From a virus: DNA of 44,247 nt. Below, in pieces: positions 1-44,247 of the stretch. Both the position numbers and the translations under genes were made by a program. The notes beneath the pieces were generated by a model that did no database searches, had not been told where the DNA came from, and saw only the letters and a program-made list of their open reading frames with translations. Where the stretch lies: IMG/VR virus record IMGVR_UViG_3300005096_000046, positions 1 through 44,247 of that record, one strand, 5' to 3'. Each line of letters starts with the position of its first letter. The first letter of the stretch is position 1.

Positions 1-91
1 ACAGCGCATTGGACTCGGCGTTCAACTACGCCTCGATGGAGGGGCCGGATCTTCGTTCCAGAATTTACAGGATCCTGGACCGGATCGATGG
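1..91. repeat. Left copy of 91-bp terminal direct repeat (circular contig overlap)
   Basis: The first 91 bases are identical to the last 91 (44157-44247). The repeat lies inside a single open reading frame that continues seamlessly from the right end to the left end. This is best read as an assembly overlap of a circular or circularly permuted genome, with an odd length that could match an assembler k-mer. A true physical direct terminal repeat is less likely, because such repeats in podophages are usually longer and rarely interrupt a coding sequence. The unique length is 44,156 bp. Confidence 0.95.
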
Positions 92-3000
92 ATCTTATAT
101 CGAGGAGGTCCTCAACGAAGGGGATGAAGATGCGTACGCCGTGGTCCAAAGTGCTTTCGGCGGCCTCATCGATGACATGAGCATCGAGGAGTTCCAGGAT
201 TATTTCGGGGACAGCGAGGACTATAAAGACGTTGCGGAGGAACTGATCCGGGAACGGATGAAACTCCAGACTCCCCGGGTGATCCCGGTCTTTCTCTCGA
301 TCAAGAACCCGGCTTACGTGGATTCGATCCCGCCTGAGCAAAGAGAGAAGTTGGGCCTCGAAGTCAAGAAGTCCGTCATTGGGAATTTCGACGAAGGCGG
401 AGACGAGTTCGTCGACCAGCTCTTCGACTACCTGACGACGGCAATCGATTCTGTTGTGACCCGAGAGGATATCGAATTCTCTTACAACCAGATCGAGGAG
501 GCAGTCTCCAACATCGTCATACCGTTGATGGAGGAAGGTGGGGAACTTACAACAGCCGCTCTCACCGAGAAGATCCGAGAGGTTCTCGGCGATATCGATT
601 GGTTCTACATGGCCGGGCCCACGGCGGACGAATACGCCGTTGGGGAAGTCGTCAAGGAAGTGCTCGAACTTTACGGGTTCGACGGTGTCGTCCATCTCTC
701 GGCTGGCCCGGACTTCCGGATGAAAGGCCAGATCTACGAGACGGCGCACTACATCGCCTTCTATCCTGAGCAGATCAAGAGCGTCTACAACACCGGGACC
801 TGGTCGACCACGGATGCCAGGATCCTCTTCCAGGAGGGCTCTCCCCTCAACCGGGGGCGGAAGAAGGGGGCCATCCAGTTCGGGAAGACGGAGACCATCA
901 TCCGCCTGTTCGAGGGAGCGGACCTGTCCACCATCGTCCACGAGATGGGCCATCTCTTCCTTCGCCAGCTCCAGGTCCTGACCCACCAGGGCCACGAGGA
1001 GGCCGTCCAGGACATCGCCACCCTGGAGGAGGCTTTCGGATCCCTGACCAGGCGGGAGAGCGTGGAGCGGGTCGCCGACGCCTGGACTCGATACATCGCC
1101 GAGGGGCGGGCCCCGACGCCCCGCCTGGCCGGGGTCTTCGCCCGGCTGTCCCGCTGGCTCCTGGACCTCTTCCGGGGTCTCAGGAACCTCATCAAGGGCG
1201 ACCGGATGGACCCCGAGGTCAAGGCGGTCTTCGACCGCTGGCTCGCCAGCGAGCAGGATATCCAGGCCGCCCGGGCCTACTACGAGCGGAACCAGGCCCT
1301 TTCGGAGATTCTGGCCACCGGAGCCTCCAGGGGCCAAGCTGAGCCCCCAGGCGCAGGCCAGGCGAAGAGCGAGGGGGAGGGGGAGGGTCAGAAGACCCAG
1401 GAACCCGAACGCCCCGCAGAAGGCGAATCTGGGGCTCGTAGAGGCCGTCGGCGTCAGCCCCCCACCGAACGGGAGACCCGGGCGGCCCGGAATCTCAAGG
1501 AGGCCAGGGCCCGGCTCGAGGCCGCCCGGCAACGGGCCCTGGAGGACCTGGTCCAGAAACGGCTTCGCCGAGTGATCCAGCTCAAGGGGGGCCGGGGGGC
1601 CCTGTCCGAGCACATCAAGACCCAGCTCCTCGAGGAGGATCCGGTCTATTCCCTCCTGGCCGAGGTGCGCCGCCTGGGCGGGCTGACGCCGACTCAGTTC
1701 GCCGGGCTGGGCGGGCTCCCCCAGGACTGGATGGAGGTTCTTCAGAAACGGCATGGGAAGGCCCTGGTGAGCAGTACGAAAAAGGCGAAGGTCACCCTTG
1801 CCCAGTTCGAGGAGATGGCCCAGGCCCGAGGATTCGCCTCCGTGCAGGCCGCTCTGAAGGAGGTGCTTGCCAGGCCGCCTCTCAAGCAGGCGGTGAAGGA
1901 GAAGGTGGAGCAGACCCTACGGGACCTGGAGGCCTCGATCCGGGAGGACCTGGAGAAGAACGGCTCTCTCATGCTTGGGGATGAGGCGGTTCACACGCCG
2001 GAGGACCTGGACTTCATCCTGGCCGACCTGGAACTCCTCCGGGAGCGGGCCGCCCGGCAGGCTGTCAGGATCCTCTCCAAGGCAGAGGCCCTGGCCCTCC
2101 GGGACGCCGCCAGGGACACCCTGCGGGCGGAGGCCCCGCTCCGGAAGGCCATGCGATACGACCTGTGGGGAAAGAGGGAGGCCGCCGCCGCCGTCCAGGC
2201 CGAGCGGGCCCTCCGGGAAGGTAAATGGGAGCAGGCTGAGGAGGCCATCAAGCGGCGCATCTTCTTCTTCTCCCTCGTCCAGGAAGCCATCCGTCTCCGG
2301 AAGGATGCGGACAGGATTCTCAAGAAATACGGACTCCAGGATCTCGAGAAGACTTTGAAGAAGGTCCCGCCGGAGACGGCGGCCCTGGTCCAGGACGTAG
2401 CCGCCTACTTCGGCTTGAACAAGGGGCGGGGCCCAGTCTCGGATCTGAAGTTCCGGTGGTATGAGTGGGACGAGGCCAGGACCCGGAGGGAGTTCCAGGA
2501 AGGCCTGGACATGTACCTCCCGGATCTGGAGAGCATGGTCCCCGGATGGATCCTCGAGGGGGAACGACCGGAAGAGTTCAAAGACGCCAAGGATCTGACG
2601 TTCGACCAACTCGATCAGCTCGACAGTTTGCTTCAAAAGATCATCGCCGACGGGAAGGGCGAGGTCCGGGCCCTCCAGGATCTCGGCTACAAGACCATCA
2701 CCGAGTTCTTGACCGACTCGATGCGCAGGCTCCAGACGATCCCGAAGAAGAAACGGAGGGATATCCGCACGATCCCAGGGATGGTCGGACGGCAGATCAA
2801 CCGGGCTCTGGCCGCTCTCCACATCAAGGAATTCATCTTCGAGGAAGCGGATGGAAGTCCTCTCCTCCGAGGGCGGGAATTGGGTCCTCTTCACAAGCTC
2901 TTCAACAAGGTCAACCAGGCGGACGCCGAGGAGCAGAACCGACTCGGGGAACTCTTCCACGTACTTGCCCCGGTGATGAAGGTCCTTGAGCAGGAGAGCC

Positions 3001-4928
3001 GTAAGTTCGACAAGTTCTTCGACATCGAAGGCGTCCCGGTCCCGAGGATCTTGCAAGAAATATACGGCAAGACGCAGTGGGATTTCGATATGCTCATCGC
3101 CGTTCTTCTGAATACCGGGAACGAGGACAACCTCAGGGTCCTGGCCCAGAGCGAGTACGAACTCACAGCCGACACGATCGAGATCCTACGAGGGCAGATC
3201 AGCAAGGAGGCCTGGCAGGCGATTCAGACCATGTGGGATGTGGTCGACTCCCTCTTTCCGGAACTCGAGAGCGTCCGTCGCAGGCTGACCGGCTTGAAGA
3301 CCGAGAAGGTAAAACCGTTGCCCTTCGAGGTCGTGCCAAGAGGGGCGAAGGAATCGATCAAGCTCCGGGGCGGCTACTACCCCTTGATCGCCGATCCAGG
3401 CGTCTCGGAGCGGGCGGCCTCAGCCGAGGAGGAAGAGACCTTCCTCACCCGGGCCAGGAAGGAGATGATCTACCACCCGACGGTCAAGGCGAAACAGGGA
3501 TTTACTGTTTCCAGGATCCGGGACGAGGAGGGCAGGGCCCTCTCGACTCGAGCCCCTCTTCTCTCGACTTCGGTGCTGTTCACCCACCTGAAGGACGTGG
3601 TCCACTTCATCACCCACGCCGAGGTCCTGGACGCCTTCGACAAGGTGACCAGGGACAAGAGCTGGGCCCAGCTCTTCAAGTCGAAGTTCGGGGATGAGGA
3701 ATACGAATCCCTCCGGACCTGGTTGAACTACGTGGCCAGGCCGGAACGGCGGGTCACCGACCCCTTCAACAAGGTCATGGAGTGGGGCCGGAGGAACTTC
3801 GTCGCGGCGGCTCTCGGATTCAGGCTGACCGTCGGCCTGAAACAGCGGCTCTCGATATTCAACGCCATCAACGCCTTGAACCAGGTGGTCAAGGGGTCCG
3901 GGTGGAAATATATCGCCAGGGGTATGGCATTGGTAGCGGCAACTAAATACGGTCCGCTCGAGTATGTCGGGCGGGATATTCTCCTCACGAACCTGGTTGG
4001 GAAGGGATCCCAACAGCTCCTGGATTGGATCCATTCCCTCTCCCCTCTCATGAAGTCCCGGTGGTACACCCTTGACCGGGACCTGGCGGACGCCTTGTCG
4101 TCTCTCAAGCCGAAGGATCTGAAAGGGGAGAAGTTGAAGAAGCTTCGGGAAGCCGCCTTCTGGTGGGTCAAGGCGAACGATGCGGCGGCGGTGATCCCGG
4201 TGTGGCTGGCGGCTTTCGAGCAGGCCCTCGATCATCATCTCAACGGGATCACCCCGGGGATGGAGCAGGAGGAGGCGTTCCGCCGGGCGGCGGAGCATGC
4301 CGACGTGATCGTCAGGATGTCCCAGCCTTCGGCTCTCCCCTCCGACCTGGCCCCGATCCAGCGGCTCGAGGGGATGGCCAGGCTCTTCACGACCTTCATG
4401 ACCTGGCGGATCAAGGCGGGGAATCGTGAGATGTGGTTCCTCTCCGAGGCCAGGCTCAAGCGGATCAAAGCCGGGGAGCCCGCCCTGGACGAGTGGATCT
4501 CGGACCCGGCGGCGACCTGGGGGACCCTCGTCAGGCACTTCGCATTGGAGTGGATCCTGCCGGCCACGGTGGCCCTGGGGACGTCCTGGCTCTGGTATCG
4601 GGACGACAGGGACAAGCCGGGCTGGTGGTCCTGGATCCTCCGGCCCACGACGGACGCCACCCTGGGGTGGATTCCCATCGTGAGCGAGGCGGCGAAGGCG
4701 GTGGAGAGGAAGGAGGCCGCCGGGGTCCCCGTGCTCGCCGGGGCGGAGGCCCTGGGGAAGGCGGCGGACTACACCGTCAAGGCCATCGAGACGGGGGACC
4801 CGGGCCGGGCGACGAAAGCGGCGGTCACCTGGTGGCGGACCATGGAGTGGTTCGCCGGGATTCCTGTGAGTAACATCCCGAGAGACGTCCTTCGCCTCTG
4901 GGAGAAGGGAGTTCTCAATGCCAAGTAA
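3..4928 (+). CDS. Giant polyvalent virion/ejection protein, C-terminal half (continues from 39332-44247)
   Basis: This is the C-terminal half of a protein whose N-terminal half begins at 39332; in the joined gene (GTG 39332 to stop 4928) it is about 3,250 residues. It opens inside an ADP-ribosyltransferase-like domain begun on the other side of the junction. The C-terminal signature of that domain, GFDGVVHL followed by YIAFYPEQIKSVYNTGTW, lies near bases 680-800. Next is a zinc metallopeptidase motif HEMGH at 939-953 (joined residues about 1922-1926), preceded by RLFEGADLSTIV, as in phage polyvalent-protein peptidases. A low-complexity Glu/Gly/Pro/Arg linker follows (about 1320-1480), then long charged helices. 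The last third, with a hydrophobic segment near 4551-4600, resembles the C-terminus of podophage internal virion proteins (T7 gp16 role). It is inferred to enter the host with the DNA. The first ATG in this piece (9) is not a real start because the frame is open upstream. Confidence 0.85.
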   Translation, partial: SALDSAFNYASMEGPDLRSRIYRILDRIDGSYIEEVLNEGDEDAYAVVQSAFGGLIDDMSIEEFQDYFGDSEDYKDVAEELIRERMKLQTPRVIPVFLSIKNPAYVDSIPPEQREKLGLEVKKSVIGNFDEGGDEFVDQLFDYLTTAIDSVVTREDIEFSYNQIEEAVSNIVIPLMEEGGELTTAALTEKIREVLGDIDWFYMAGPTADEYAVGEVVKEVLELYGFDGVVHLSAGPDFRMKGQIYETAHYIAFYPEQIKSVYNTGTWSTTDARILFQEGSPLNRGRKKGAIQFGKTETIIRLFEGADLSTIVHEMGHLFLRQLQVLTHQGHEEAVQDIATLEEAFGSLTRRESVERVADAWTRYIAEGRAPTPRLAGVFARLSRWLLDLFRGLRNLIKGDRMDPEVKAVFDRWLASEQDIQAARAYYERNQALSEILATGASRGQAEPPGAGQAKSEGEGEGQKTQEPERPAEGESGARRGRRRQPPTERETRAARNLKEARARLEAARQRALEDLVQKRLRRVIQLKGGRGALSEHIKTQLLEEDPVYSLLAEVRRLGGLTPTQFAGLGGLPQDWMEVLQKRHGKALVSSTKKAKVTLAQFEEMAQARGFASVQAALKEVLARPPLKQAVKEKVEQTLRDLEASIREDLEKNGSLMLGDEAVHTPEDLDFILADLELLRERAARQAVRILSKAEALALRDAARDTLRAEAPLRKAMRYDLWGKREAAAAVQAERALREGKWEQAEEAIKRRIFFFSLVQEAIRLRKDADRILKKYGLQDLEKTLKKVPPETAALVQDVAAYFGLNKGRGPVSDLKFRWYEWDEARTRREFQEGLDMYLPDLESMVPGWILEGERPEEFKDAKDLTFDQLDQLDSLLQKIIADGKGEVRALQDLGYKTITEFLTDSMRRLQTIPKKKRRDIRTIPGMVGRQINRALAALHIKEFIFEEADGSPLLRGRELGPLHKLFNKVNQADAEEQNRLGELFHVLAPVMKVLEQESRKFDKFFDIEGVPVPRILQEIYGKTQWDFDMLIAVLLNTGNEDNLRVLAQSEYELTADTIEILRGQISKEAWQAIQTMWDVVDSLFPELESVRRRLTGLKTEKVKPLPFEVVPRGAKESIKLRGGYYPLIADPGVSERAASAEEEETFLTRARKEMIYHPTVKAKQGFTVSRIRDEEGRALSTRAPLLSTSVLFTHLKDVVHFITHAEVLDAFDKVTRDKSWAQLFKSKFGDEEYESLRTWLNYVARPERRVTDPFNKVMEWGRRNFVAAALGFRLTVGLKQRLSIFNAINALNQVVKGSGWKYIARGMALVAATKYGPLEYVGRDILLTNLVGKGSQQLLDWIHSLSPLMKSRWYTLDRDLADALSSLKPKDLKGEKLKKLREAAFWWVKANDAAAVIPVWLAAFEQALDHHLNGITPGMEQEEAFRRAAEHADVIVRMSQPSALPSDLAPIQRLEGMARLFTTFMTWRIKAGNREMWFLSEARLKRIKAGEPALDEWISDPAATWGTLVRHFALEWILPATVALGTSWLWYRDDRDKPGWWSWILRPTTDATLGWIPIVSEAAKAVERKEAAGVPVLAGAEALGKAADYTVKAIETGDPGRATKAAVTWWRTMEWFAGIPVSNIPRDVLRLWEKGVLNAK

Positions 4929-5835: not shown

Positions 5836-5838
5836 GGC

Positions 5839-7863: not shown

Positions 7864-7886
7864 CACGGGCCCTCCAGGGAAAGGGC

Positions 7887-7906: not shown

Positions 7907-7917
7907 TGGGAAATGGT

Positions 7918-10216: not shown

Positions 10217-10234
10217 GATTCCTCCGAAAGAAAG

Positions 10235-10269: not shown

Positions 10270-10279
10270 AGTCAGCGGG

Positions 10280-12183: not shown

Positions 12184-12195
12184 GCTTGCTCCTTT

Positions 12196-14633: not shown

Positions 14634-14651
14634 GATTGGACTCCTTTCGAG

Positions 14652-30554: not shown

Positions 30555-33500
30555 ATGGCGATGACCTTCCCCTTGGTATCGTTCCTTGGCGGCGAATGGG
30601 ATCCTTCGCTCCATGCCCGTGTGGACCTGGCGAAGTACCGGATTTCGGCTCGGAAGCTGAAGAACGCCATCCCGACGATCCAGGGAGGGGTCAAGAACAG
30701 GGCGGGGACGGGGTTCGTGGCAAACCTGGACCCCTGGTGCGAGCACAAACTGATCCCCTTCGTCTTCTCGAACGAGCAGGCCTACCTCCTGGTCCTCGAG
30801 GCGGACCAGAAGATGTGCCGGATGCGGGTGATCAAGGACGGGGCGGAGGTCATCGATCCCACGACCATGGACGCTCTGAACACGTCGACCTTCACGTGGG
30901 AGCCTGATTCGGCGACGGGGTGTTGGTTCCTGCGGCTTGCGACGGCGTCAGGAGGGTCTTACGACCCCTCTGGGAGCCTCACCATACCCACCTACGGAAC
31001 GACCAGGGCGGCGAAGGAACGGGGCTTTGAGGCGGTGCTCTACGGTTCCTCGAAGGCCCCCCTGCTGGATTGCGGCCTGTCCTACGACAACCCCGGGGCG
31101 GGCCTGGTGTTGGCGGGCCCGGCGCTCAAGTGGAACCGGCAAGGGACGACGGATGCCTGGTACATCACCGCCCTGGACGGGAGCAACCCGCATCTTTCGA
31201 AACCGGCCACGGTGCGGCACATGCTGGGGGAGCGGGGACTTCAGTGGAAGGAACTGGACTACCAGGCCATCACTTCCCTGGTGGGTGGGACGGTGGGGTG
31301 GGGCTACGGGGACCCGGGGAGCCTTGGCTACAGCACCATCGTCGTGAACCTGGGCGGGACGGACCCTTCGACGAAGGACAGGGGCTGGATCGAGGCGGCC
31401 TACACGAAGGTCCTCCCCAAAGACGCTTGGGCTTACGGCTGGGCGGAATACAGCGGGTCCAGATTCAAGACGATCTGGGTGAACCCTGCAGAGGATCCGA
31501 CGACGGTGTCGGCTACCGACTACCTGGTCACCGCCTACAAAGTGATCGTCTATGGGGATCTTCCTTACAAGTCCTCGGATATACACAGGGTCACCTACAT
31601 TCAGGACGCCGATACGCTTCTTCTGTTTCATCCAAGCTACAATCCGAGGCGGATCACCAGGGCGAGTCACACGTCCTGGACCATCGAGGACCTCCCCATG
31701 GCCTCGGATTGCAACGCCTACACCGGCGGCCAGGCCGCCCCGGGGTCCGCTCCAACGGTGACCAAAGGGTGGGAATACATCAATGGTCCTGGGTTCAGGT
31801 GGGAGCAGTCTACTCAGAGGACGGCATCGGGGACTTGGTATTTCCTGACCGAGCAGAACGGGAGATCGCCCTACCACGTGGTGGCCCCGGCCTCGGTGCG
31901 GAAGGGCACCTCGGTGCTCACGAGAGGGTCGGCGGCGGGGAATTGGGAGTGGGGGGATTTCGACAACCTAGGCTTCGAGACCATCTACGTTCAGGATTCC
32001 ACGGACCCGGATTCTCAACCGCAGGGGACCTTCCAGGCTCAATGGCAGGATCAGAAATACGTGGCGACGGCGGTGAGTCAGGATGGGGAGGAGTCCCTTC
32101 CTTCGGCGGAAGCTACGGCGGGGACCGGCGGGATCCTGACTCCGCCAGCTACCACTGGTGCGGATCACTTCAACCTCTATCGGAAATGGCGGGGGTTCTA
32201 CGCCTGGGTTGGGACGGACTCTCCCTTGAGCAGGAACATCCCGATCAGCCCGATTGAGCCGGACGCTTCGAAGGGCCCTCCCCAACGATACGGGACGGCG
32301 GGGACCCCGGACCTGCAGACGGCGGCGGGGTATCGCCCTGGGAAGGGTGTTTTCTTTCAGCAACGTCTTGTCCTTGCGAGGACGGACAAGAAACCGACTA
32401 CGCTGTGGGGGAGTCAAGTTGGGTTCATTTACAATTTTCTGTATTCAGTTCCTCCGAGGGATGACGATGCCTTTTCTTTTACCTTGGCGTCGGAGCAGAT
32501 GGACGAGATCGTCTGGCTCGCCTTCCTCGGGGACCTGCTGGTCGGGACGAAAGGTGGGGAATACAGGATTTCTCCGGAACCAACCAGAGGGGCGATCACT
32601 CCTTCCTCCGTTTATATCCGATCTCAGAGTTCTTGGGGCTCGAAGGAGGTCCAACCTGAGGTGGTTGGCCGAACGCTCTTTTTCGTCCAGCGCGGTGGGA
32701 TCGTCTTGCGGGCGATGGCCTACAACCTTCAGGCGGACGGGTTCCAGAGTTCAGACGTTTCGGTCTGGGCGAGGCATCTTTTCGAAGGGGTGAAGCTCCT
32801 GCGGCACTATGTCTGGACCCCCTCGGATGACAGGTGGGTGAAGAACGGGAAGCCGCTCGAGTGGGTGAACATCTCGTCGACGAACCTGTGGTATCTGAAA
32901 AGGAACTACAAGTATACGGATGCCACGAACTGGTCGACTTATTTATGGAAAGACGACCAGTGCCCTTTCAATCGGCCTTGGGGCTTCTTCGCCTACATGT
33001 ATCTCCCTTCCCAGGGCGTGCTCCAGCTCACGGCGAAAGAGACGACGGCGGATCTCAACGGGAATTTTCAGTGGACCTGGGGCCAGCACAGCGGCACCCC
33101 CGGCTATGACACGGTGTTCATCTACTCCACGACGGATCCGAACGAGAACGTCGACATCGGCTACGGATATTGGGAGAGCAAGAAGGCGGTCATCAAACGG
33201 CTTGCCTACCAGGTCGACCCGGAAGGTATCCTCTGGGTCCTCACCGAATCGGGAGAGCTGAGGGGCCTTCTCTTTTCGGAGGAACAACAGGCACTGGCCT
33301 GGTTCCGGGTGGAGACCAGGAACGGTCTTTTCATGGACGAGGCGGTGGTCCCGTCGGCGGATGGCACGAAGGAGGATCTTTATGTCGTTGTCCGCCGGGA
33401 GACGGCGGGGAACCAGGTCACCAAGAAGCTTGAGATGTTCCTCAAACGTGAGCCTGATCCCTGGAAGAACCTTACCAGTTTCAATCTGGTGGATTGCGCT

Positions 33501-34016
33501 GTTACGGTTTATGCTTGGAACAACCCCGTCTCAGAGGTTTGGAGTCCTGGTCTGATTGACGGGGAAACCTACAGCATCGTCTATTATACGGGATCCAATA
33601 TACGTTACAAGACGGGATTGGTTTGCAAGAACGGGAAGCTTTCTCTCCCGGAGAAGGCGAAGTTCGTCAGAGTCGGCCTTCCTGTTTCTTTCGAGGTGGA
33701 GACCAACGATCTCGCCCTTCTCAACGAGCAGGGGTCGACCCAGGACAAGTTGAAGAAGGTGGATTCGGTCCTGTTCTCCGTTGCGGATACCTATTCCGGG
33801 CTCCTGATCGGGACCTCCGGGATCGGAGAGAGTGACTTTTCCCGCTTGGAATTCGGCCATGATCCGACGGAACAGGGCACTCTTTTCACAGGGCTTTTTG
33901 AGGGGTTCACAATGCCGCACAACGTGCGTGAGCTGTCGATCATCTTCAAGACGGCGGAACCGATCCCCGTCCATGTGCGGGGGCTGTACGCCCGGATCAG
34001 CGGAGGGATGTTCTGA
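30555..34016 (+). CDS. Tail nozzle protein (T7 gp12 / tail tubular protein B-like), enlarged
   Basis: The N-terminus (SFLGGEWDPSLHARVDLAKYRISARKLKNAIPTIQGGVKNRAGTGFV) is the signature of podophage nozzle proteins. The C-terminal half holds the usual elements: FFQQRLVLARTDKKPTTLWGSQVG, DDAFSFTLASEQMDEIVWLAFLGDLLVGTKGGEYRI and QRGGIVLRAMAYNL. At 1,153 residues it is larger than T7 gp12 (about 800). Three copies of a similar Trp/Gly-rich segment (ending WGYGDPGSLGYSTI, WEWGDFDNLGFETIYV and WTWGQHSGTPGYDTVFIYS) suggest inserted repeat domains, perhaps receptor- or glycan-binding. Confidence 0.9.
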   Translation: MAMTFPLVSFLGGEWDPSLHARVDLAKYRISARKLKNAIPTIQGGVKNRAGTGFVANLDPWCEHKLIPFVFSNEQAYLLVLEADQKMCRMRVIKDGAEVIDPTTMDALNTSTFTWEPDSATGCWFLRLATASGGSYDPSGSLTIPTYGTTRAAKERGFEAVLYGSSKAPLLDCGLSYDNPGAGLVLAGPALKWNRQGTTDAWYITALDGSNPHLSKPATVRHMLGERGLQWKELDYQAITSLVGGTVGWGYGDPGSLGYSTIVVNLGGTDPSTKDRGWIEAAYTKVLPKDAWAYGWAEYSGSRFKTIWVNPAEDPTTVSATDYLVTAYKVIVYGDLPYKSSDIHRVTYIQDADTLLLFHPSYNPRRITRASHTSWTIEDLPMASDCNAYTGGQAAPGSAPTVTKGWEYINGPGFRWEQSTQRTASGTWYFLTEQNGRSPYHVVAPASVRKGTSVLTRGSAAGNWEWGDFDNLGFETIYVQDSTDPDSQPQGTFQAQWQDQKYVATAVSQDGEESLPSAEATAGTGGILTPPATTGADHFNLYRKWRGFYAWVGTDSPLSRNIPISPIEPDASKGPPQRYGTAGTPDLQTAAGYRPGKGVFFQQRLVLARTDKKPTTLWGSQVGFIYNFLYSVPPRDDDAFSFTLASEQMDEIVWLAFLGDLLVGTKGGEYRISPEPTRGAITPSSVYIRSQSSWGSKEVQPEVVGRTLFFVQRGGIVLRAMAYNLQADGFQSSDVSVWARHLFEGVKLLRHYVWTPSDDRWVKNGKPLEWVNISSTNLWYLKRNYKYTDATNWSTYLWKDDQCPFNRPWGFFAYMYLPSQGVLQLTAKETTADLNGNFQWTWGQHSGTPGYDTVFIYSTTDPNENVDIGYGYWESKKAVIKRLAYQVDPEGILWVLTESGELRGLLFSEEQQALAWFRVETRNGLFMDEAVVPSADGTKEDLYVVVRRETAGNQVTKKLEMFLKREPDPWKNLTSFNLVDCAVTVYAWNNPVSEVWSPGLIDGETYSIVYYTGSNIRYKTGLVCKNGKLSLPEKAKFVRVGLPVSFEVETNDLALLNEQGSTQDKLKKVDSVLFSVADTYSGLLIGTSGIGESDFSRLEFGHDPTEQGTLFTGLFEGFTMPHNVRELSIIFKTAEPIPVHVRGLYARISGGMF

Positions 34017-34561
34017 TGGAGGGCAGAAGCGTATACGTTCGGGAGGCGGTGGAGCCGGATGCTCGCCGTATTGCGGAGAACCTCCGGGAAAGTGACAAGG
34101 AGGAAATCTGGCTGGCTTGTGCGGGGAATCCCGAGAAGGAGGTCATGCGGACTTTCAAGATCTCGGAGATGGCTTGGATCGTATATTTCGAAGAGCATCC
34201 TGTCTGCCTGGGCGGCTGTTGCGACGGCGGGACTGACGGGCCCTGGAAGAAGGGCTATCCCTGGTTTGTGGCGACGGATGAGTTGAATCTCTGGATCGTC
34301 AGGATGTTCCTCGCAAAGTACAGCCCGAACTTCGTCTTTCACATGTTCGAGAAGTTCGACTACCTCGAGAACTGGGTATACCACGAGAACCTCATATCGC
34401 TGAGTTGGCTGGCCCGGCTTCTGTTCACGATAGACGACGAGGCCCCCTATGGTCCGTTTGGTGCGGGGTTTCACCATGTTAGCTTGCATCGGATGACGAT
34501 GGAGCGGCTATTGAACCAGGACATCGTCCAGGAAAACTGGATCGAAGGGTTGGTGGTATAG
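34016..34561 (+). CDS. GNAT-fold virion protein (T7 gp13-like)
   Basis: The 181-residue protein starts VYVREAVEPDARRIAENLRESDKEEIW and has an IVYFEEHPVCLGGCC strand and a late Asn/Tyr region (FEKFDYLENWVYHENLISLSWLARLLF), as in the acetyltransferase-like proteins encoded after nozzle genes in podophages (T7 gp13, DUF2833). These are usually inactive or assembly-related. It overlaps the nozzle stop by one base and ends immediately before the tailspike start. Confidence 0.75.
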   Translation: MEGRSVYVREAVEPDARRIAENLRESDKEEIWLACAGNPEKEVMRTFKISEMAWIVYFEEHPVCLGGCCDGGTDGPWKKGYPWFVATDELNLWIVRMFLAKYSPNFVFHMFEKFDYLENWVYHENLISLSWLARLLFTIDDEAPYGPFGAGFHHVSLHRMTMERLLNQDIVQENWIEGLVV

Positions 34562-36922
34562 ATGGCGGTCTATCATTTCAGCATGGTCGAGGGGAATGAC
34601 GACCACGGATCGGGGACCCAGTCGTCCCCGTTTCAGACTTTGGACAAAGCGAACGCTATTTTTTCGTCTGCCATCGTGGCCCCGGGTGATCACTTCTTGT
34701 TTGCCATGGGGGAGACGTTCTTTGGAAAGCTCGAGGCCATCGTAGCCGGGACGGCGGACAAACCGATCAAGATCGGTACTTATGTGCGGGAAGGATCGGC
34801 CTACGACTACATGCCAGCTAGGTTCTGTGGCGGGATCTATCTGATCGGGGCGTGGGAACGGTACAGTTCCGGCGGGGTCGAGATGCGGAGGCGGCCTCTT
34901 CCTGGGTCCGTGTCCTCGGATGTCCTCATGTTCAGGAACCTCGTGGGGAGAAAGTGCGCATCGGTCTCGGCCATTTCGAACGACTATGACTGGACCATCG
35001 ATTCGAACTACATCTACATCTACGCTTCAGCGGATCCATGGAGTTACTACGGGATCAAGCCGGAAGATCTGGTCCTCGTGACGAAGGATTCGATCCTTGC
35101 TATTGGAGCGGGATACATCGAGGTGGAACGAATTCGGTTCCAGCATTGGAACTACGTTTCGTCCAATCAGGCCCCGGCTGTGAATATCGATGGGGATACG
35201 TCGGTCATCAAGGGGATCTCGATTCACGATTGCGAGATTCTTGCCGGGTTCAATCTTGGCTCGGTAGGAATCTCGGTGCAATACGCAGAGGCCGACATCG
35301 AACACAACCATTTCGATAGGCCGTACATCGGCATCTCCGTCAGGGACCACGGAACGGTGACGAGCAAGAGCAATCTTTTTTCCGGGGTCTTCACGCCGAT
35401 CTCTCTGGATCACGTCACGGCGGGCGGGACCTCCACGAAGGATCTTTCTGTCGGCGGGATGCAGACGTTCCCGACGGACATGGATACCGGGACCTCGAAG
35501 GAGGACAATCGGCTTCCCTTCGAGTTCTTCGTGCGACCTTCGAGCATGATGAAGGCGACGCTGATTCTCGACGATCCTTTTCTTGCGGCGAGTGACTACT
35601 CCAGGGCGGGGAAGACGCCGATTGTTCTTCCTGATTTTCTGAATACGATCCTCGATATTTTTGATCGATTCGGTCAGAAATATCCGGGATTGGGCGTAGT
35701 GTCCGCTCGGCTTGCCGAGGACCCGGAGACTTGGCAAGGGGCGATTGAGTTCCTCCGGGAGTTCCATGACAAGGGCGGGGACATCGTCAACCACTCCTGG
35801 TCCCATACGGCGTTCATCTCGGGTTCGGCGGATGTGGGGCTCTACATTTCGTCTACTTTGGCCGATCCCAAGTTGACGATCCAAGATGTCGTCAGTGGGA
35901 GCACTACGACAAGGCATCTCGTCATCAAGGACGGAACAACGGTCAAGGAGGATCTGAACCTTTCGTCCTCGGCTTACAAGTATATCTACCAGGTAGTCGA
36001 CTACCTCAACGCCAAGTCGGAATACACGGTTTCCCCGGGGGTTGTGACTTATACCTACAACAGCTATAAATATCAACATTCCGAATCTTTGGCTCTCATC
36101 GCTGATGTTCCGATCTCCTCGACTTACGGGGCGAAGTTTTCGGCACAGAAGTTCGCCGAACACGAGATTGGCAAGTCCTATGATTTCCTCACCGATGTCG
36201 TGGGGACCACTCCAAGCCGGATGTATGCATATCCTTTCGGTCAGCTCTACGACTACGCAAGCCTGGACACGGTCTTCTCGGCTTTCTCGAACCATAAATG
36301 CGGGCGGAAAGCCGCTCCGGATCCCTTGGTGACGCAGAATCCCGGTTATAAGGGGGCGTTCGATATGCTCGCCCTCCCGGCCCAGGTTTTCACTCTCTCG
36401 GCCAGTACCGAATCGGGGTTGAGGGACAGCATCTTTCGGCACATGCGGTTCTGTCAGCGGAACGCCCAGCCAGCGATTTTCTTCTTCCACCCGGAATACG
36501 GTACGGAATATCTGGTCAAGGCGATTCTCTCGGCAATCCTGGAGCTGGGGGAGTTCGTGACCCCGGACGAACTTTACGAGGATTTCGAATCCAACCTCAT
36601 CACGCTGGATTTCCGGCATAGGATGCTGAAGGCCGAGAGCAGGCCGAATCTCTTTGATCTTCGGACCTTCTACGATCTCCACGAGGATTCCTCGGCGAGG
36701 GGGGAGGGGGCGGCCCCTGTCGGCACTTACGACATCAAGGGACGGATCTATGAGCCCTCCCTGAGGCGGGACGTAGGGCCCCGGCAATGGATCTCCAGGC
36801 TTCGGGAGTTGAGGGAGGCCCCGGTGCCGGTCCGGGTGGCGGACGCCCCGGAGACCGGCTACGCTGAGGCGTCGATGTTCTTTCTGGTCATGGAAGCCGA
36901 GACGGCTCCGGTCTTTCCGTAG
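34562..36922 (+). CDS. Tailspike: beta-helix domain plus NodB-type polysaccharide deacetylase domain
   Basis: The 786-residue protein begins with a beta-helix-like region: GSGTQSSPFQTLDKANAIF, and later rungs such as IEVERIRFQHWNYVSS, ISIHDCEILAGFNLG and IEHNHFDRPYIGISV. From about residue 325 it changes to a carbohydrate-esterase-4 (NodB) pattern: motif 1 ATLILDDPF (D337/D338), motif 2 NHSWSH (H411, H415), a YAYPFGQ element near 557-560 and IFFFHPE (H643). It should bind and deacetylate a host surface polysaccharide. The C-terminus (DIKGRIYEPSLRRDVG...) is a short beta tail. The first aspartate pair is followed by Pro rather than Gly, a slight departure from TFDDG. Confidence 0.85.
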   Translation: MAVYHFSMVEGNDDHGSGTQSSPFQTLDKANAIFSSAIVAPGDHFLFAMGETFFGKLEAIVAGTADKPIKIGTYVREGSAYDYMPARFCGGIYLIGAWERYSSGGVEMRRRPLPGSVSSDVLMFRNLVGRKCASVSAISNDYDWTIDSNYIYIYASADPWSYYGIKPEDLVLVTKDSILAIGAGYIEVERIRFQHWNYVSSNQAPAVNIDGDTSVIKGISIHDCEILAGFNLGSVGISVQYAEADIEHNHFDRPYIGISVRDHGTVTSKSNLFSGVFTPISLDHVTAGGTSTKDLSVGGMQTFPTDMDTGTSKEDNRLPFEFFVRPSSMMKATLILDDPFLAASDYSRAGKTPIVLPDFLNTILDIFDRFGQKYPGLGVVSARLAEDPETWQGAIEFLREFHDKGGDIVNHSWSHTAFISGSADVGLYISSTLADPKLTIQDVVSGSTTTRHLVIKDGTTVKEDLNLSSSAYKYIYQVVDYLNAKSEYTVSPGVVTYTYNSYKYQHSESLALIADVPISSTYGAKFSAQKFAEHEIGKSYDFLTDVVGTTPSRMYAYPFGQLYDYASLDTVFSAFSNHKCGRKAAPDPLVTQNPGYKGAFDMLALPAQVFTLSASTESGLRDSIFRHMRFCQRNAQPAIFFFHPEYGTEYLVKAILSAILELGEFVTPDELYEDFESNLITLDFRHRMLKAESRPNLFDLRTFYDLHEDSSARGEGAAPVGTYDIKGRIYEPSLRRDVGPRQWISRLRELREAPVPVRVADAPETGYAEASMFFLVMEAETAPVFP

Positions 36923-36931
36923 GAGGGTGCG

Positions 36932-37453
36932 ATGTGCGTGGATCCGATCACTGCAACGGCCATTGTGGCGGGCACTGCCGCTGTCGGGCAGGGCTATGCC
37001 ACGGCTATGGGGCAGAAGGCGCAGAACAAGGCTCTCAGAGCCCGGGCCCGCCTGGCGGAGCTGAACGCCCGGGTCAACCAGGCACGGGCCTCGGACGCCA
37101 CTCTCAGGGGCCGCACGAGGGCCCTCAGGCGGGCTGTGCAGGCCGAGCATGCCATGGGTGCCACCAGGGCCGGGGCGGCGGCGGCGGGCGTCCAGGTGGA
37201 CACAGGGAGCCCTCTGGCCCTCCTCCAGGCGACTGAGCATGTTGGCCAGCAGGAGGTCTTCGAGGAGACCCAGCGGGCCGCCCTGGAGGCCTGGGGCTAC
37301 AACGTGGAGGCGGTCAACGCCAGGAACCGGGCGAACCTCTACAGGGCCAGCACGGCGTCCCCCTGGTTCGCCGCTTCTCTGCAGACGGTCGGATCGTTGG
37401 GACAGCTCGGGTTTTCCTACCTGGGAGCCTCGGGCGTGGGGAAGGGAGCGTAA
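36932..37453 (+). CDS. Internal virion protein B-like (T7 gp14-like)
   Basis: The 173-residue protein starts MCVDPITATAIVAGTAAVGQGYATAMGQ, then has long Ala/Arg/Gln helices (NKALRARARLAELNARVNQARAS) and ends with Gly/Ser-rich hydrophobic residues. This is the composition of small podophage ejection proteins that span the outer membrane in T7 (gp14). Its position between tailspike and the two larger helical proteins supports the assignment. Start is ATG 36932 with AGGAGG upstream. Confidence 0.75.
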   Translation: MCVDPITATAIVAGTAAVGQGYATAMGQKAQNKALRARARLAELNARVNQARASDATLRGRTRALRRAVQAEHAMGATRAGAAAAGVQVDTGSPLALLQATEHVGQQEVFEETQRAALEAWGYNVEAVNARNRANLYRASTASPWFAASLQTVGSLGQLGFSYLGASGVGKGA

Positions 37454-37455
37454 AG

Positions 37456-39330
37456 GTGCGGATTCCTTACAGGCGGTTTTCTCAGGGCGGGATGCCGGGG
37501 CTCCCCGGGGTGCAGGTCTCGGAGAATGTTCCCGGGGCGGCCTTCGGGGCCCAGAAGTTCTCGCAGATCTCCCAGGGCCTGGGGAGCATCCAGCAGGCGG
37601 GTTCTGCCGGGATGCAGTTCTTCGCCTATCTCCAACGGCAGGACGACTATCTCAAGGTCACCCAGAAGATCGCCGAGCAGAGGGATTGGCAGAATTCCTT
37701 CATGCAGGAGGCGATGCAGAAGAGGGGGATCGAGGCGTCGGGTCTCACGAAAGCCTTCATCGAAGCGCAGAAGGAGAAGGCCAAGGAGTTGGAGAAGACT
37801 CTGGAGACGCCGAGGCAGATCGCCATGTTCCGGATGGCTCAGTTGCGGTATAACACATACGCCTTGAACGCCATCCAACGCCATGAGATCCAGCAGAAGG
37901 AGGCCGCCTTCCAGGAGGAGACCAAGAAGCAGATGGAGTTGGACCTCCACGATGTCGCCCAGGACCCCTACAACGATGATCTTTTCCAGGCCAGGCTCAA
38001 GGATTTTCAGGAGAAGACCGTCGTGTTGAATCGAGGGCTTACGCCGAAGGCCCTGGAGGAGGTCAAGCGGAAGGCGGCGGAAGTCATCGTGGAGCACCGG
38101 GTCCAGGCCATCATTGCCGATGCGGCGAACTACGAGGGCCGGGAGCGGGAGGAGAAGCTTGCGGCGGCGAAAGAGGTGTTGGCCCAGCACAGGAAGGTCA
38201 TGGATGGGGTGAAGTACTCGTCCCTCCTTTCGACCTTGAAGCAGGCGGAGGTGCAGGCCAAGGGGGATCGGATCGGGGAGGAGGCTTTCGACAAGTACGG
38301 CGAGGAAGCGATCTATAAGATCACCGAACTCAACAATCTCTCCGACGAGGTCAAGACCAGGGCCCTGGAACGGGTGAAGGATCTTGTCGCAAAAGAGAAG
38401 ATGGCCCAGGTCGTGAAAGAGAAGGAAGCGGTCGACAGGATCTTGACCACTTTCGACGAGCAACGGCAGACAATGACAAAAGCCGATCTGACCAAGATGC
38501 TCGAAACAGAATATGACAATCTTTCTCCGTCGAAGCGGCTCGCATTGCGGAATCAGTTGGAAAGCTACATCGACGCCAGAGACAACAATCGTCTCCGTGA
38601 GGAAAAGGCTCAGATTCGGAACCAGATTCTCGAGACCTATCTCAAGGATCCGAAGGCTTTTCTCGACCTCGACATCCAGGATGTTGGAGCGGCGTTGGAT
38701 CCTACCGAGAGGGCGAAGTTCATCGAGATGCAAAACGAGATGCGTAGAGGCGAGACGACGCTCAAGACGAAGTTCTTCCAGACCGGGATGAAAACAGCCG
38801 ACAGCGTATTCAAGTCTTATTTCCCGAAACCGACCAAGCTGAAAGACGAGAGCGAAGAGGACTATCAGGCCCGAGTGGATGACTGGATGCTCAAGAAGTC
38901 CGACTTTACCAGCATGGCCATGCAGATCATCATGAGGGCGGATCCGAAAAAGACATCGATCTCGGAGATCAACAAGGAAATCGGAAACCTGGTCGAGACT
39001 TTCACATCTACCGAAACCGGTTCAACGCTTTACAAGTTCCAGATCCCGAAGGAATACAGCGGAGGCGGGCTTGGCGAACTCGAGCCCTCGGAGCGGACCG
39101 TCGAGCTGTGGCGGAAGCGGTATGGATTTTCTGACGAAGCGAGGTTCGACGCCGGGACGGGGCTCTTCGAAGAAGAAAACAAGGAGGCGATCAGGAAGGT
39201 GCTGTTCTCGTTCGGCAAGCCCGCCACCTTCCAAGGCCATGCCATCGACAAGATCTGGATGACGGCGGACGAGAAGCTCTACAAGATCAGGACGACGGAC
39301 GGAAAGATCCACATCCTTCAGGAGAAGTAA
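37456..39330 (+). CDS. Internal virion/ejection protein C-like (624 aa)
   Basis: GTG 37456 follows the previous stop by two bases. The protein starts with a Gly/Pro-rich arm (RIPYRRFSQGGMPGLPGVQVSENVPGAAFG), then is almost wholly helical and charged, as in T7 gp15-like ejection proteins that build the periplasmic tunnel. The C-terminus has a small beta domain (DEKLYKIRTTDGKIHILQEK). No enzymatic motif is seen. Assignment is by order, size and composition. Confidence 0.75.
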   Translation: MRIPYRRFSQGGMPGLPGVQVSENVPGAAFGAQKFSQISQGLGSIQQAGSAGMQFFAYLQRQDDYLKVTQKIAEQRDWQNSFMQEAMQKRGIEASGLTKAFIEAQKEKAKELEKTLETPRQIAMFRMAQLRYNTYALNAIQRHEIQQKEAAFQEETKKQMELDLHDVAQDPYNDDLFQARLKDFQEKTVVLNRGLTPKALEEVKRKAAEVIVEHRVQAIIADAANYEGREREEKLAAAKEVLAQHRKVMDGVKYSSLLSTLKQAEVQAKGDRIGEEAFDKYGEEAIYKITELNNLSDEVKTRALERVKDLVAKEKMAQVVKEKEAVDRILTTFDEQRQTMTKADLTKMLETEYDNLSPSKRLALRNQLESYIDARDNNRLREEKAQIRNQILETYLKDPKAFLDLDIQDVGAALDPTERAKFIEMQNEMRRGETTLKTKFFQTGMKTADSVFKSYFPKPTKLKDESEEDYQARVDDWMLKKSDFTSMAMQIIMRADPKKTSISEINKEIGNLVETFTSTETGSTLYKFQIPKEYSGGGLGELEPSERTVELWRKRYGFSDEARFDAGTGLFEEENKEAIRKVLFSFGKPATFQGHAIDKIWMTADEKLYKIRTTDGKIHILQEK

Positions 39331-39331: not shown

Positions 39332-42300
39332 GTGACCAGCATGCCTCCTCTCTTTCCCGGTCTGGAGCCTGAGAAGGACAAACCCACCTTCCCGGTCGAC
39401 GATACCAAGGCGTGGGGTTCGGCGATCACCGTCCCGGACCTCAACGTCGATGAGGCCCTTGCCAAAGCCAGGGAGCGGGAACGGCGGCTTCCCGTCTGGG
39501 AGTTCCATCGTCCTGGGTTCAAGGGTCCGCACAAGGCTCTCCAAGAACTTTTCTCCGAGTATTCGCCAGAGGACCTGGTGGAGGTGGTGGCGGGCGGGAA
39601 GGAAAAGACCTTTCTGCAGGCCCTTCATCTCTATCAAGACCCGGACAAGGCCTACCTGGCGGCCTTCGGGAGGGAAGGGACAGCGAAAGAGAAGGCGAAG
39701 CTCTACGCTGAGTTGACGGGGATCCCAGAGCACGAGATCGTAAGGCATCTCAAGGACTTCGAGGAGAAGGTCCTTTTCGGGAAGATCCCTGACGTCAAGA
39801 AGGCCTACGACGAGTTCTTGTCCAGGTCCGTCTTTGCGGAACAGAAACGGAACGAGAAGGAGATCGCAGAGATCGCCGATTCCCTTCGACGGGAATTCGA
39901 GAAGGGATCGAGCCAAGAGGCTCTGATCTACAAGTACGCCAGAATGCTCGAGGTTTCCCCGGCCTACGTCCGGGCGAACCTGGACAAGGTGAGGGCGGAG
40001 GTCTTCACGAAAAAGGTCCTGGAGGATCTGGATCGCTTGTTCCCCTACCCCAAAGACGGGGATCTCATGAAGGCCTGGTTGAAGAATCCGGAGAACGCCA
40101 GCCTGGCCGTCAACAGCCTCCCCTACATCTCGAGGGTCCGGGGGATGATGATCGCCAAGAAGGCGTCCTGGCCGGAGAAGTTCTGGAAATCCCAGGTCGT
40201 CCCGATGGCGGAGGGGTTGTTCGGGGCCGGGATTCTCAGCTTTTCCGGCATGCTGAATAAAGGGGCGAGTTTCCTGCTTTCGCCGATTTCGGAGAAGGCG
40301 AAGGAAGATCAGTACTCGCTCTACCTGCAGGCGATGGCGACATCCAAGTTGATCGAGGAGTCTCAGCCTGTCTTTGCGAAGGGCGAGATCGGTTACGGGA
40401 CGGAACTCGCCGGGGCCTTCGGGCAGATGATTGCGGCGGTTGGCGTAACGCTTCTCAGCGGCGGCTCCGACATACCGGTGCTCTTCCTTTACGGCACGTC
40501 GGAAGCGGGGAACCTATTCCGGGAAAAGGACGCCCAGGGCGTTCCTTTCCTCCCTGCGTTTCTCATCTCCGTGTCCGTCGGGACCTTGAACGCCACCATC
40601 GAGTCGATGCAGATCAAGGGAGCCGGGCGCATCGGCGGATTCCGGAAGTTCCTCGCCAAGGACCTGGTACGCCAGCACGCCTTCGAGATCGCCGGGGAGA
40701 TCATGCGGGAGGGGGCGGAGGAACTGATCCAGCAGGTGGTCCACGAGGTCGGATCCATCGGATTGGACTTGGCTGGGCCCGCCAGGAACCGGCCCTCCTT
40801 CAAGCAGATCCTCCAGCGCATCGCCGGGGCGGTGACCTCCGGGCTCTATCAGGGAAGCCTGGCGGCCCTCTCGGCCTCCTTCTTCGGGGCCTTCCGGCTG
40901 AGGAACATGTTCCATCGGGTGTCCTTGGCACAGGCCCAGCAGGAGTTCGTCAAGAACATCATGGAGGCCTCCCAGGCCGCCCCTATGACCGAGGAGAACG
41001 TGGAGGCCACCAGGACCTTCCTCCAGGCCGCCTTCAAGGGGAGTGATCTGGAGCGGTCCTACATCCCCGCCCAGGCGGTCGAGGAGTATTTTCAGGACAA
41101 GGGGGAGGAGATGCGCCGGGAGTTCCTTGAGGCCCTGGCCATCACCGAAGAGAAGTTCCTGAAGGTCCTCCGGGAGGGAGGGGACCTGGAGTTCAACACC
41201 GAGGATTGGCTCGCCCGGGCGGCCAGGATGGATTCGGCGGTTGATCTGTTCTCGAAGGTGTCCTGGGGCGGTCAGATGACTCTCATGGAGATGAACGAGG
41301 TTGCCGTCAAGGCGAAGCATGACGCCCAGGTCCTTGCCTCCACCCTTTACGATATGGCGGAAGTGGAGAATCCCGGAGAATTGTCCTCGGCCAAGATTGA
41401 GGCGATGGAGGAGACTCTCACGGAGTTCTACGGGAAAGAGCAGGCCAAGGCGGTCATGGCCCTCTTCAAGGCCGGGGCTCTCCGATTCGGCAAGTTGCAG
41501 GGGATGAGTCCGAAGGAGATCGCTCAGAAGCTGACCCCCACGATTGTCGTCCAGTCGTTCGACTCTTTCGTCGAGGCAAAGAACGGGAAGGTCGATGTCG
41601 CCCTGGAGGAAGCCCATCGGAAGATCATGGAGAAGCGGGCGGTGAGCTGGCTCCCTCCCCGAGCCCGGCGGGCTAAGATGCCCCCGGCCTTCCTGAACAA
41701 GGAGGGCATGGCCCTCCCAGCCTATCGGGAGACCGGAGGGATCTGGCGAATCCATCGGACGCCGGTCACCGGGGAGGAGATGGCCATCCTCAGGGCGAGG
41801 AAGACCCTGGACGTGAACGCCGAGACCCAGGAGGCGGAGGATTTCAGATCCTGGGCCCGGGACCAGGTGGGGAGCGTCTACAAGGCCATCCAGGCTTTTT
41901 CCTCCGGGGAGCGGGGTTCCAAGGTCATCCGAGACCGGGTCCGTGCCTGGGCGAAGGCGAGAGGGATCGACATCATCTACGACGGCACCGAGGTTGTGCC
42001 GATGACTCGCCAGGCGATCCAGCCGATCAAGATCGGGCCGGAAGAGAAGGAGAGATTTCAACATCCGGAACCGAACTATTTTTACAAGACCCTCGGCGAG
42101 ATCGACCCCGAGAACATCGAGGTCGACAAGGAGGCCGAGGAGGAGTTCTTTCAGCAGGATCCGAGGAAGTGGCGATACGATTTTTCTAAATACGAATGGA
42201 AGGTCGTCAACAACCGGGTTGCGAAGGAATTCGAGATCATCGATGCTCTCGGATTCAAACCGCCGAGTCTGCTTGAAGAGCTGATCGTCACCGGGGAACC

Positions 42301-44247
42301 GGGAAAGAAGAGTGAGAAGAGGAACAGGGTCCCCGAGGCCTATTCCCTTGCCGAGGCCATCTACGCTCAATTGGATTGGGCAAAAAAGCTGTTCGACCCA
42401 AACCTCACCCCGGAGGGACTTTTCGAGCAGACCGATCTGAAGGGGGCGAAGGCAAAGGCCAAGTTCAAGAAGTTCGTTTTGAAGCTGAGACAAGGATCGA
42501 CGCTTTTCGACGAACCGCCGGAGAAGGGTGTTCTTTCGGCCAACGACAAGGCGACGGCGGGGGTGAGCCTGGCTTTGTTCATGTGTCAACCTTCCGTCTC
42601 ATGCCCTGAGTGCTATGTCGCCAAGGCCATGATTCGATTCGACACCGTCTTCAAGGCGGTGCGGAACTCGCTTCTCATCCTGCTTGATCCAAAGGCTTTT
42701 GGCCGGGCCGTGGCCGAGGAGGCGAAAGCTTTTTCCAAGCTCGATCTCCCGTATATCCGTCTGCTCGATTCCGGCGACATGACCTTTTCAGAAACCGTCG
42801 AGGCCTTCAACGAGATCGCCAAGCATGCGGATCGGGACATCCATATCTTCTCCAGGCATCATGACAACCTGGCCAAGTTGAAGAGCACCTGGAATTCCGC
42901 CTTCATGAAGATGGGGTCCTTGGACATCGGGCTCTACGAGCACTACGTGAAGGAATACGGAAAAGAGTGGCTCAAGAACAATCTCAGGGAACGGGGGATC
43001 AGCAACTGCTGGCTCTTGCGGGATCCCTCTGAGATCCCGTTGGTCGACCAGCTTGTGGATGAGGGTATCATCAATCTGATCTTCCCGGCGTCGGAGAAGC
43101 TCCACCCGAAGCTTGGGGTCCTGGCCAGGGCCTCTTCGTGCCCGTGCGATATTCACGAAAAGTCGTCTCTCGGCGCATGTCGAGGATGCGCCGCCAGTGC
43201 GATGGGGTGTCGCCTTGCGTTCAACAAGGTCTACGTGGACGAGGCCGGGAACCTTCTGGTCGAAGAGGACCTGGACAAAGCTCAGGGCAACGTCCGCCCT
43301 CTCGCCACCTCCTTCCTCAACAAGGCGGTCCTCGAGGAGGGGCTCTCGGGGCGGGCCGAAGCTGTGGCGAAGACCTACGCCAACGTGGTCCGGGACTACC
43401 TGAAGAAGATGCAGGAAAAAACCCGGGACGACGAGCGGGCCTGGAGGAAGATGCGGAAGGTCGTTCTCGAGGAGAAGCGGGCTCCGAAGCAGAGTGACAA
43501 GGCGAAGATGGGGGTCAAGTTCCGGGACTACCGGGCCCCGGACCAGGACGTCACCTATCACGACATCGAGGTGGCGATGGCCAGGGAGAACATGACCCGG
43601 GCGAAACGAGGAAAGCTTCCGATCACGCTCGAGGAGATGCGGCAGAAAGAGGCCAAGATCCAAAAGCGCAAACCTGGATTCCGATACGCCACCAAGGAGG
43701 AGATCGAAGCAAGGCTTCAGGCCTATCGAGAGAACCTCCAGGGTGCGTGGGCCAAGCTCGAGAAGGGAACCTTTTTCATCCCGGGCGGAGAGGCTGTTCC
43801 TCCTGTGGCCTACAAGGCCTGGAAGAAGATGGACACCATTGAGGACCTGGACCTCAACGAGTTCTTCCAGGAGGAGGGGCCTGCATTCTCTTGGGGCTAC
43901 AGCTACCCCTACAACGAGGAAGGAACGCAGGAGTTCGTCATCGGCTACCGGGAGCAGATCCAGAACTCCCAGGCGGTCAAGCGCACCCTCGAGGATGAAA
44001 ATTTCAAGAAGTGGTTCGAAGGATCCAAGATCGTCGATCAGGACGGCAAACCCTTGGTCGTCTTTCACGGGACCTTGCGGGACATCGAGGGCGGAGCCTT
44101 TGATATCTCGAAGATCCCTCTGACCAACGATGTTGGCCGGGCGTTCTATTTCAGTGACAGCGCATTGGACTCGGCGTTCAACTACGCCTCGATGGAGGGG
44201 CCGGATCTTCGTTCCAGAATTTACAGGATCCTGGACCGGATCGATGG
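39332..44247 (+). CDS. Giant polyvalent virion/ejection protein, N-terminal half (continues at 3-4928)
   Basis: GTG 39332 has GGAG 7 bases upstream (ATG 39341 is the alternative with poorer spacing). The frame is open to the window end and resumes at base 3, giving about 3,250 residues. Residues 1-280 are helical. About 285-525 contains several hydrophobic segments, likely membrane-inserting. Around 1080-1300 lies a cysteine domain resembling phage GP88: C1091-PE-C1094-Y, LLDSGDM (D1149), and a late cluster C1270/C1272/C1283/C1286/C1293. Near 1565 an ADP-ribosyltransferase-like domain starts (VDQDGKPLVVFHGT, H1579; RAFYFSDS) and finishes on the other side of the junction. The metallopeptidase and virion-core parts follow in 3-4928. 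It is inferred to be injected with DNA (T7 gp16 slot). Domain names rest on motif recognition only. Confidence 0.85.
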   Translation, partial: MTSMPPLFPGLEPEKDKPTFPVDDTKAWGSAITVPDLNVDEALAKARERERRLPVWEFHRPGFKGPHKALQELFSEYSPEDLVEVVAGGKEKTFLQALHLYQDPDKAYLAAFGREGTAKEKAKLYAELTGIPEHEIVRHLKDFEEKVLFGKIPDVKKAYDEFLSRSVFAEQKRNEKEIAEIADSLRREFEKGSSQEALIYKYARMLEVSPAYVRANLDKVRAEVFTKKVLEDLDRLFPYPKDGDLMKAWLKNPENASLAVNSLPYISRVRGMMIAKKASWPEKFWKSQVVPMAEGLFGAGILSFSGMLNKGASFLLSPISEKAKEDQYSLYLQAMATSKLIEESQPVFAKGEIGYGTELAGAFGQMIAAVGVTLLSGGSDIPVLFLYGTSEAGNLFREKDAQGVPFLPAFLISVSVGTLNATIESMQIKGAGRIGGFRKFLAKDLVRQHAFEIAGEIMREGAEELIQQVVHEVGSIGLDLAGPARNRPSFKQILQRIAGAVTSGLYQGSLAALSASFFGAFRLRNMFHRVSLAQAQQEFVKNIMEASQAAPMTEENVEATRTFLQAAFKGSDLERSYIPAQAVEEYFQDKGEEMRREFLEALAITEEKFLKVLREGGDLEFNTEDWLARAARMDSAVDLFSKVSWGGQMTLMEMNEVAVKAKHDAQVLASTLYDMAEVENPGELSSAKIEAMEETLTEFYGKEQAKAVMALFKAGALRFGKLQGMSPKEIAQKLTPTIVVQSFDSFVEAKNGKVDVALEEAHRKIMEKRAVSWLPPRARRAKMPPAFLNKEGMALPAYRETGGIWRIHRTPVTGEEMAILRARKTLDVNAETQEAEDFRSWARDQVGSVYKAIQAFSSGERGSKVIRDRVRAWAKARGIDIIYDGTEVVPMTRQAIQPIKIGPEEKERFQHPEPNYFYKTLGEIDPENIEVDKEAEEEFFQQDPRKWRYDFSKYEWKVVNNRVAKEFEIIDALGFKPPSLLEELIVTGEPGKKSEKRNRVPEAYSLAEAIYAQLDWAKKLFDPNLTPEGLFEQTDLKGAKAKAKFKKFVLKLRQGSTLFDEPPEKGVLSANDKATAGVSLALFMCQPSVSCPECYVAKAMIRFDTVFKAVRNSLLILLDPKAFGRAVAEEAKAFSKLDLPYIRLLDSGDMTFSETVEAFNEIAKHADRDIHIFSRHHDNLAKLKSTWNSAFMKMGSLDIGLYEHYVKEYGKEWLKNNLRERGISNCWLLRDPSEIPLVDQLVDEGIINLIFPASEKLHPKLGVLARASSCPCDIHEKSSLGACRGCAASAMGCRLAFNKVYVDEAGNLLVEEDLDKAQGNVRPLATSFLNKAVLEEGLSGRAEAVAKTYANVVRDYLKKMQEKTRDDERAWRKMRKVVLEEKRAPKQSDKAKMGVKFRDYRAPDQDVTYHDIEVAMARENMTRAKRGKLPITLEEMRQKEAKIQKRKPGFRYATKEEIEARLQAYRENLQGAWAKLEKGTFFIPGGEAVPPVAYKAWKKMDTIEDLDLNEFFQEEGPAFSWGYSYPYNEEGTQEFVIGYREQIQNSQAVKRTLEDENFKKWFEGSKIVDQDGKPLVVFHGTLRDIEGGAFDISKIPLTNDVGRAFYFSDSALDSAFNYASMEGPDLRSRIYRILDRID
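44157..44247. repeat. Right copy of 91-bp terminal direct repeat
   Basis: This stretch is identical to bases 1-91 and shows that the contig closes on itself. Removing one copy leaves a 44,156-bp circle in which the giant gene is intact. Confidence 0.95.

Follow-up and report, generated by a model that had tools for sequence, protein, structure and literature searches.

A 3,250-residue Bbp10 homologue divided between the ends of a circular podovirus contig: very likely a polyvalent protein carried in the phage head and delivered along with the DNA

The locus

The window, by which we mean the whole analysed stretch of 44,247 nucleotides, ends as it begins: an exact 91-bp repeat has its only copies in the window at positions 1 and 44157, and joining the ends gives a circle of 44,156 bp on which one very large gene runs through the joint.

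39332..44156, plus strand: giant gene, first part (from the GTG start through residue 1608, plus base 1 of codon 1609; continues at base 1 of the window)
1..4928, plus strand: giant gene, second part (residues 1609-3250 and stop)
1..91, no strand: exact 91-bp end repeat, left copy, read here as assembly overlap
44157..44247, no strand: exact 91-bp end repeat, right copy, likewise read as assembly overlap

The first-pass annotation had proposed that a gene of about 3,250 codons is split by the contig ends, and an ORF check bears this out: the frame opening at GTG 39332 is free of stops to 44245 (1,638 codons); the frame with its stop at 4928 extends back to base 3 without interruption (1,641 codons); and the joined ends place both in a single in-frame gene of 9,753 nt and 3,250 aa with zero internal stops, which occupies 22.1% of the 44,156 bp and is the window's largest, the runner-up measuring 3,462 nt. 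That these are the halves of one gene is further supported by an ART-PolyVal profile that crosses the junction and by uncut relatives elsewhere. On base composition alone, 3,250 open codons would arise by chance with a probability of about 8e-48; the two parts of the gene have similar GC contents by codon position (0.60/0.39/0.81 and 0.64/0.41/0.83), and their codon usage agrees, with a correlation of 0.94. A few bases 5′ of GTG 39332 stands AGGAG, and the GTG itself follows directly on the stop of the upstream gene. The right-end part had also been expected to be missed in a linear annotation; genes left open at an edge are reported as partial by most gene callers.

Opposite the giant gene an antisense frame of 1,094 codons also spans the junction (42788-44156 plus about 1-1916, minus strand). 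We rejected it as a gene and attribute it to the GC-rich third positions; automatic gene callers might list it in error.

The genes upstream of the giant encode virion proteins and one mid-size protein:

30555..34016, plus strand: tail (nozzle-slot) protein, phrog_376
34016..34561, plus strand: internal virion protein, phrog_308
36932..37453, plus strand: internal virion protein, Pfam T7_gp14 / phrog_418, two genes upstream of the giant
37456..39330, plus strand: 624-aa mid-size protein, with no domain match here

In Pseudomonas phage AF the slot of the 624-aa protein is annotated as 'structural lysozyme', in Cobetia phage Carin1 as 'putative lysozyme'. An extra gene for a 786-aa protein (34562-36922) lies between the two internal virion proteins, and its only family match is a weak one to DUF1565; in several relatives a tail spike follows the giant and the window has none there, so the 786-aa protein may be the tail spike. 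Elsewhere a minus-strand replication block (5458-18507) encodes a family A DNA polymerase, an SNF2 helicase, an Enc34-type ssDNA-binding protein, and a DUF2800 nuclease, with a plus-strand primase-polymerase/AAA protein (15775-18507) divergent from it. Scans of the window for tRNAs and Rfam families gave no match.

Homology and synteny with Bordetella phage BPP-1 bbp10

A tblastn search of phages with the left half of the giant returned 34 records, all below 60% identity, headed by bbp10 of Bordetella phage BPP-1; and phrog_9880 matches both parts of the giant in order, at positions 429-669 and then 1215-2044 (E 1.7e-104). Gene order much like that of the window is found in eight phages, BPP-1 and the seven others whose Bbp10 homologues we compared (Carin1, Jess A, MZH0603, AF, vir555, CP2, and PS25B.1), the common order being tail/nozzle protein, two small internal virion proteins, mid-size protein, giant. 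Judged by its homologous zincin and C-terminal part and by its syntenic position, the giant gene is a syntenic homologue of BPP-1 bbp10 and belongs to the Bbp10-like family.

At least 571 viral contigs encode relatives of the giant in our viral contig scan, and relatives with the same gene uncut reach 4,254 codons. One IMG/VR contig of 44 kb (L118, 3300040801_001131) carries at 3553-16317 a Bbp10-like frame that takes up about 29% of its length (4,254 codons), with matches to LPD22, two ART domains, and PBECR5. Megablast of 30555-39330 against phages gave zero matches, as did a search for the host by capsid in bacterial genomes, and an NCBIfam scan of both giant halves found no match.

Variable cargo in the N-terminal part

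From N- to C-terminus the joined protein comprises an LPD22-like module, a hydrophobic stretch, a GP88-like seven-cysteine domain, an ART domain, a zincin-like HExxH...E core, and a conserved C-terminal part.

39881..40159, plus strand: LPD22-like N-terminal module (residues about 184-276)
42302..43321, plus strand: GP88-like cargo domain (residues about 991-1330), its seven cysteines invariant in five aligned giants
44036..44156, plus strand: ART-PolyVal, first part (profile 1-46; H1579 and Y1606)
1..794, plus strand: ART-PolyVal, second part (profile 47-136; D1836 at 681-683)
939..1067, plus strand: zincin-like metallopeptidase motif HEMGH (residues 1922-1926) and invariant E1964, from alignments of relatives
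1473..4925, plus strand: C-terminal part conserved among Bbp10-like proteins (residues about 2100-3250), the part reached by phrog_9880 (E 1.7e-104)

The LPD22-like module is a profile-level match only (hhalign probability 83, E 9e-6), obtained against a profile built on the relatives' N-termini; Pfam LPD22 itself (PF18834) has no match in the window. When the N-terminal and cargo regions of 30 relatives were scanned with Pfam, LPD22 was found in 25 and ART-PolyVal in 16, while PBECR nucleases, kinase, GNAT, RadC, GGDEF, ddrB-ParB, MuF_C, HATPase, and GP88 each turned up once or a few times; a cargo composition of this kind has been published for phage polyvalent proteins (PMC5512222).

The ART domain lies across the junction. 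The right end of the contig matches positions 1-46 of Pfam ART-PolyVal (PF18760) and the left end positions 47-136, the cut falling at 46/47; the halves score 27.5 and 21.4 bits, each below the curated cut-off of 31.2 bits, which only the joined piece passes (56.1 bits). Because the profile thus continues from 46 to 47 over the joint, and exceeds its cut-off only when the pieces are joined, the contig ends belong together. The H-Y-D triad, the active site described for ARTs of polyvalent proteins (PMC5512222), is intact as assigned by motif, its first two residues (H1579 and Y1606) being encoded at the right end and the third (D1836) at the left.

The GP88-like domain carries C1085-x5-C1091-x2-C1094-Y followed by C1270, C1283, C1286, and C1293. 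At 23.3 bits it falls just under the curated cut-off of Pfam GP88 (PF17338; 24.4 bits), whereas the homologous domain of the L216 giant is over it at 36 bits. Homologues are present in six other giants (G028, L155, L156, L157, L216, and L229), and a profile of these six scores 30.7 bits against the window domain and at most 5.5 bits in 200 shuffles. Searches with the window domain found no match in viral and genome contigs, and tblastn against phages found none with either this domain or its G028 homologue; with a mean pLDDT of 40.7, an AlphaFold2 model of the GP88-like domain lacked the quality that a fold search needs. The one match to solved structures by sequence, L37Ae, was dismissed as chance-level.

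The word 'gp88' is absent from the main text of the polyvalent-protein survey (PMC5512222), and the fusion of GP88 to a polyvalent protein may for that reason be undescribed so far. The cysteine pattern, CX5CX2CY with four C-terminal cysteines, hints at an enzyme of the iron-sulfur type, perhaps radical-SAM-like, that polyvalent proteins would bring into the cell as cargo, a speculative idea to which we give a rather low probability; if true, iron-sulfur cargo would be a type that the text of the survey does not name. We regard the GP88-like cargo as the aspect of the giant protein most worth following.

A constant zincin-like core and C-terminal part

Bbp10 residues 700-1000 served as a seed for the CLCA_X zincin family (PMC3650047), and the window giant has both sequence hallmarks of a zincin-like metallopeptidase, HExxH and a downstream glutamate ligand. 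The HExxH motif occupies an equivalent place in 27 of 27 giants of a first comparison; its H, E, and H and the downstream E (E1964 in the window) are invariant in 18 aligned sequences and again in 52, the independent result in the latter set being the downstream E only, since its 51 relatives had been preselected for HExxH. Four giant frames lack HExxH (L181, L191, L194, and L156 at 1-5835), the last of which retains a GP88 domain. A sequence search of solved structures with the zincin and C-terminal part returned nothing.

Among 87 giants, with frames counted stop to stop and possible duplicates between sets, the length before the motif ranges from 649 to 3,039 residues, the length behind it averages 1,270 with a standard deviation of 126, 95% of the length variance is N-terminal to the motif, and nine exceed 3,250 residues, the longest reaching 4,254. 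The comparison shows that the zincin-like core and C-terminal part are constant and the N-terminal cargo is swapped within the Bbp10-like family; the window giant illustrates such swapping ahead of a fixed part.

A polyvalent protein, very likely packaged and ejected

Three disparate domains in one polypeptide (ART, conserved zincin motif, and GP88-like) and a gene beside virion structural genes identify the giant as a further member of a large, already known class of polyvalent proteins, long although not the longest. Phage polyvalent proteins have been argued to be packaged and ejected, and their zincin domain has been proposed to release parts by proteolysis (PMC5512222); literature searches turned up no virion proteomics of any Bbp10-like protein. 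Its gene position and its T7 gp14-type neighbor suggest that the giant is probably packed into the head and leaves it together with the DNA. In that case packaging, ejection, and release by (auto)proteolysis would be the task of the constant zincin-like core and C-terminal part; the variable N-terminal cargo would do its work soon after entry into the host cell; and the ART domain could ADP-ribosylate host proteins. Taken together, we consider it very likely that this podovirus giant is a 3,250-residue, polyvalent homologue of Bbp10, split by chance of assembly, that it is housed in the head of the virion, and that it enters the host with the DNA.

The giant might instead be a lysis protein, a virion lysin with no role as an injected polyvalent effector, and Bbp10 relatives are indeed labelled 'lysis protein' or 'lysin' in Caulobacter phages and in PMC9239159; yet that name is tied to a beta/gamma-crystallin motif with no measured activity behind the label, scans against Pfam, PHROGs, and NCBIfam detect no peptidoglycan-degrading domain, and the cargo consists of ART, nucleases, kinase, and similar domains. 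We judge a lysin very improbable, and prefer a polyvalent protein ejected with the DNA.

Why the contig ends fall within the gene

We compared the ends of 21 relatives on viral contigs. Four have end repeats, of 99, 99, 123, and 127 bp, and in two of these (G028 and G021) the same gene is also cut, at other positions, with frames of 2,750 and 2,609 codons after joining. In window-equivalent residues the three break sites are 1608, 2652, and 1764, and no conserved end is apparent.

Short exact end repeats are a recognised form of phage genome ends, and the 91-bp repeat could on that ground be a genuine direct terminal repeat, the virion genome being linear and the gene interrupted in the particle and restored on circularisation. 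A packaging site, however, would keep its place, and the breaks at 1608, 2652, and 1764 do not; the repeats of the relatives are all odd numbers, and odd repeat sizes are typical of an assembler k-mer. The related phage UFJF_PfDIW6, moreover, has a circular assembly from which terminal repeats are absent (PMC8951688). A terminal repeat is hardly credible on this evidence, and as both repeat sizes and break sites differ among circular relatives, we conclude from the comparison of these contigs that the split very probably reflects an assembly break at an arbitrary site and not a physical genome end. That the halves are two separate genes, or a chimeric assembly, joined in frame by coincidence (a prior of 1 in 3) has next to no probability, given an ART-PolyVal profile that runs over the joint residue for residue, phrog_9880 matches to both halves in order, and the shared codon usage, and is brought close to refutation by relatives that carry both halves in a single uncut frame.

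Consequences for annotation

A circular contig can thus hide its largest gene: here each half scores too low to pass the ART cut-off, and the residues of the catalytic triad lie partly at one end and partly at the other. Because such genes fill a large share of the genome (22% in the window, about 29% in contig G005), cuts of this kind should be frequent, and one was seen in two of the four other relatives with end repeats. Rotation of circular contigs ahead of annotation would recover giant genes cut in this way.

Comparison with known systems

The window giant can be compared with four known systems. i) N4-like virion RNA polymerases are likewise very large, contain an MPTase domain, and are carried in the virion (PMC5512222), but no RNA polymerase module was found in the window giant. 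ii) T7 gp14, gp15, and gp16 offer a parallel in gene order, a gp14-type internal virion protein being followed by a mid-size protein and then by a very large one; unlike gp16, however, the giant has no sequence match to gp16, and no transglycosylase domain match in Pfam or PHROGs. iii) The polyvalent proteins of Iyer et al. 2017 (PMC5512222) resemble it in being large and multidomain, in combining an ART and a zincin-like peptidase with an LPD-type domain, which in the giant is LPD22-like at profile level, and in their setting among virion genes; to these the window giant adds the GP88-like domain. iv) BPP-1 Bbp10 (2,052 aa) and its homologues share the slot behind internal virion proteins, the HExxH...E core, and the C-terminal part. 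Identity to Bbp10 over the zincin core and C-terminal part is 25-31%; the window giant is about 1,200 residues longer, nearly all of them N-terminal to the zincin motif, and carries GP88-like and ART domains where Bbp10 has PBECR1.
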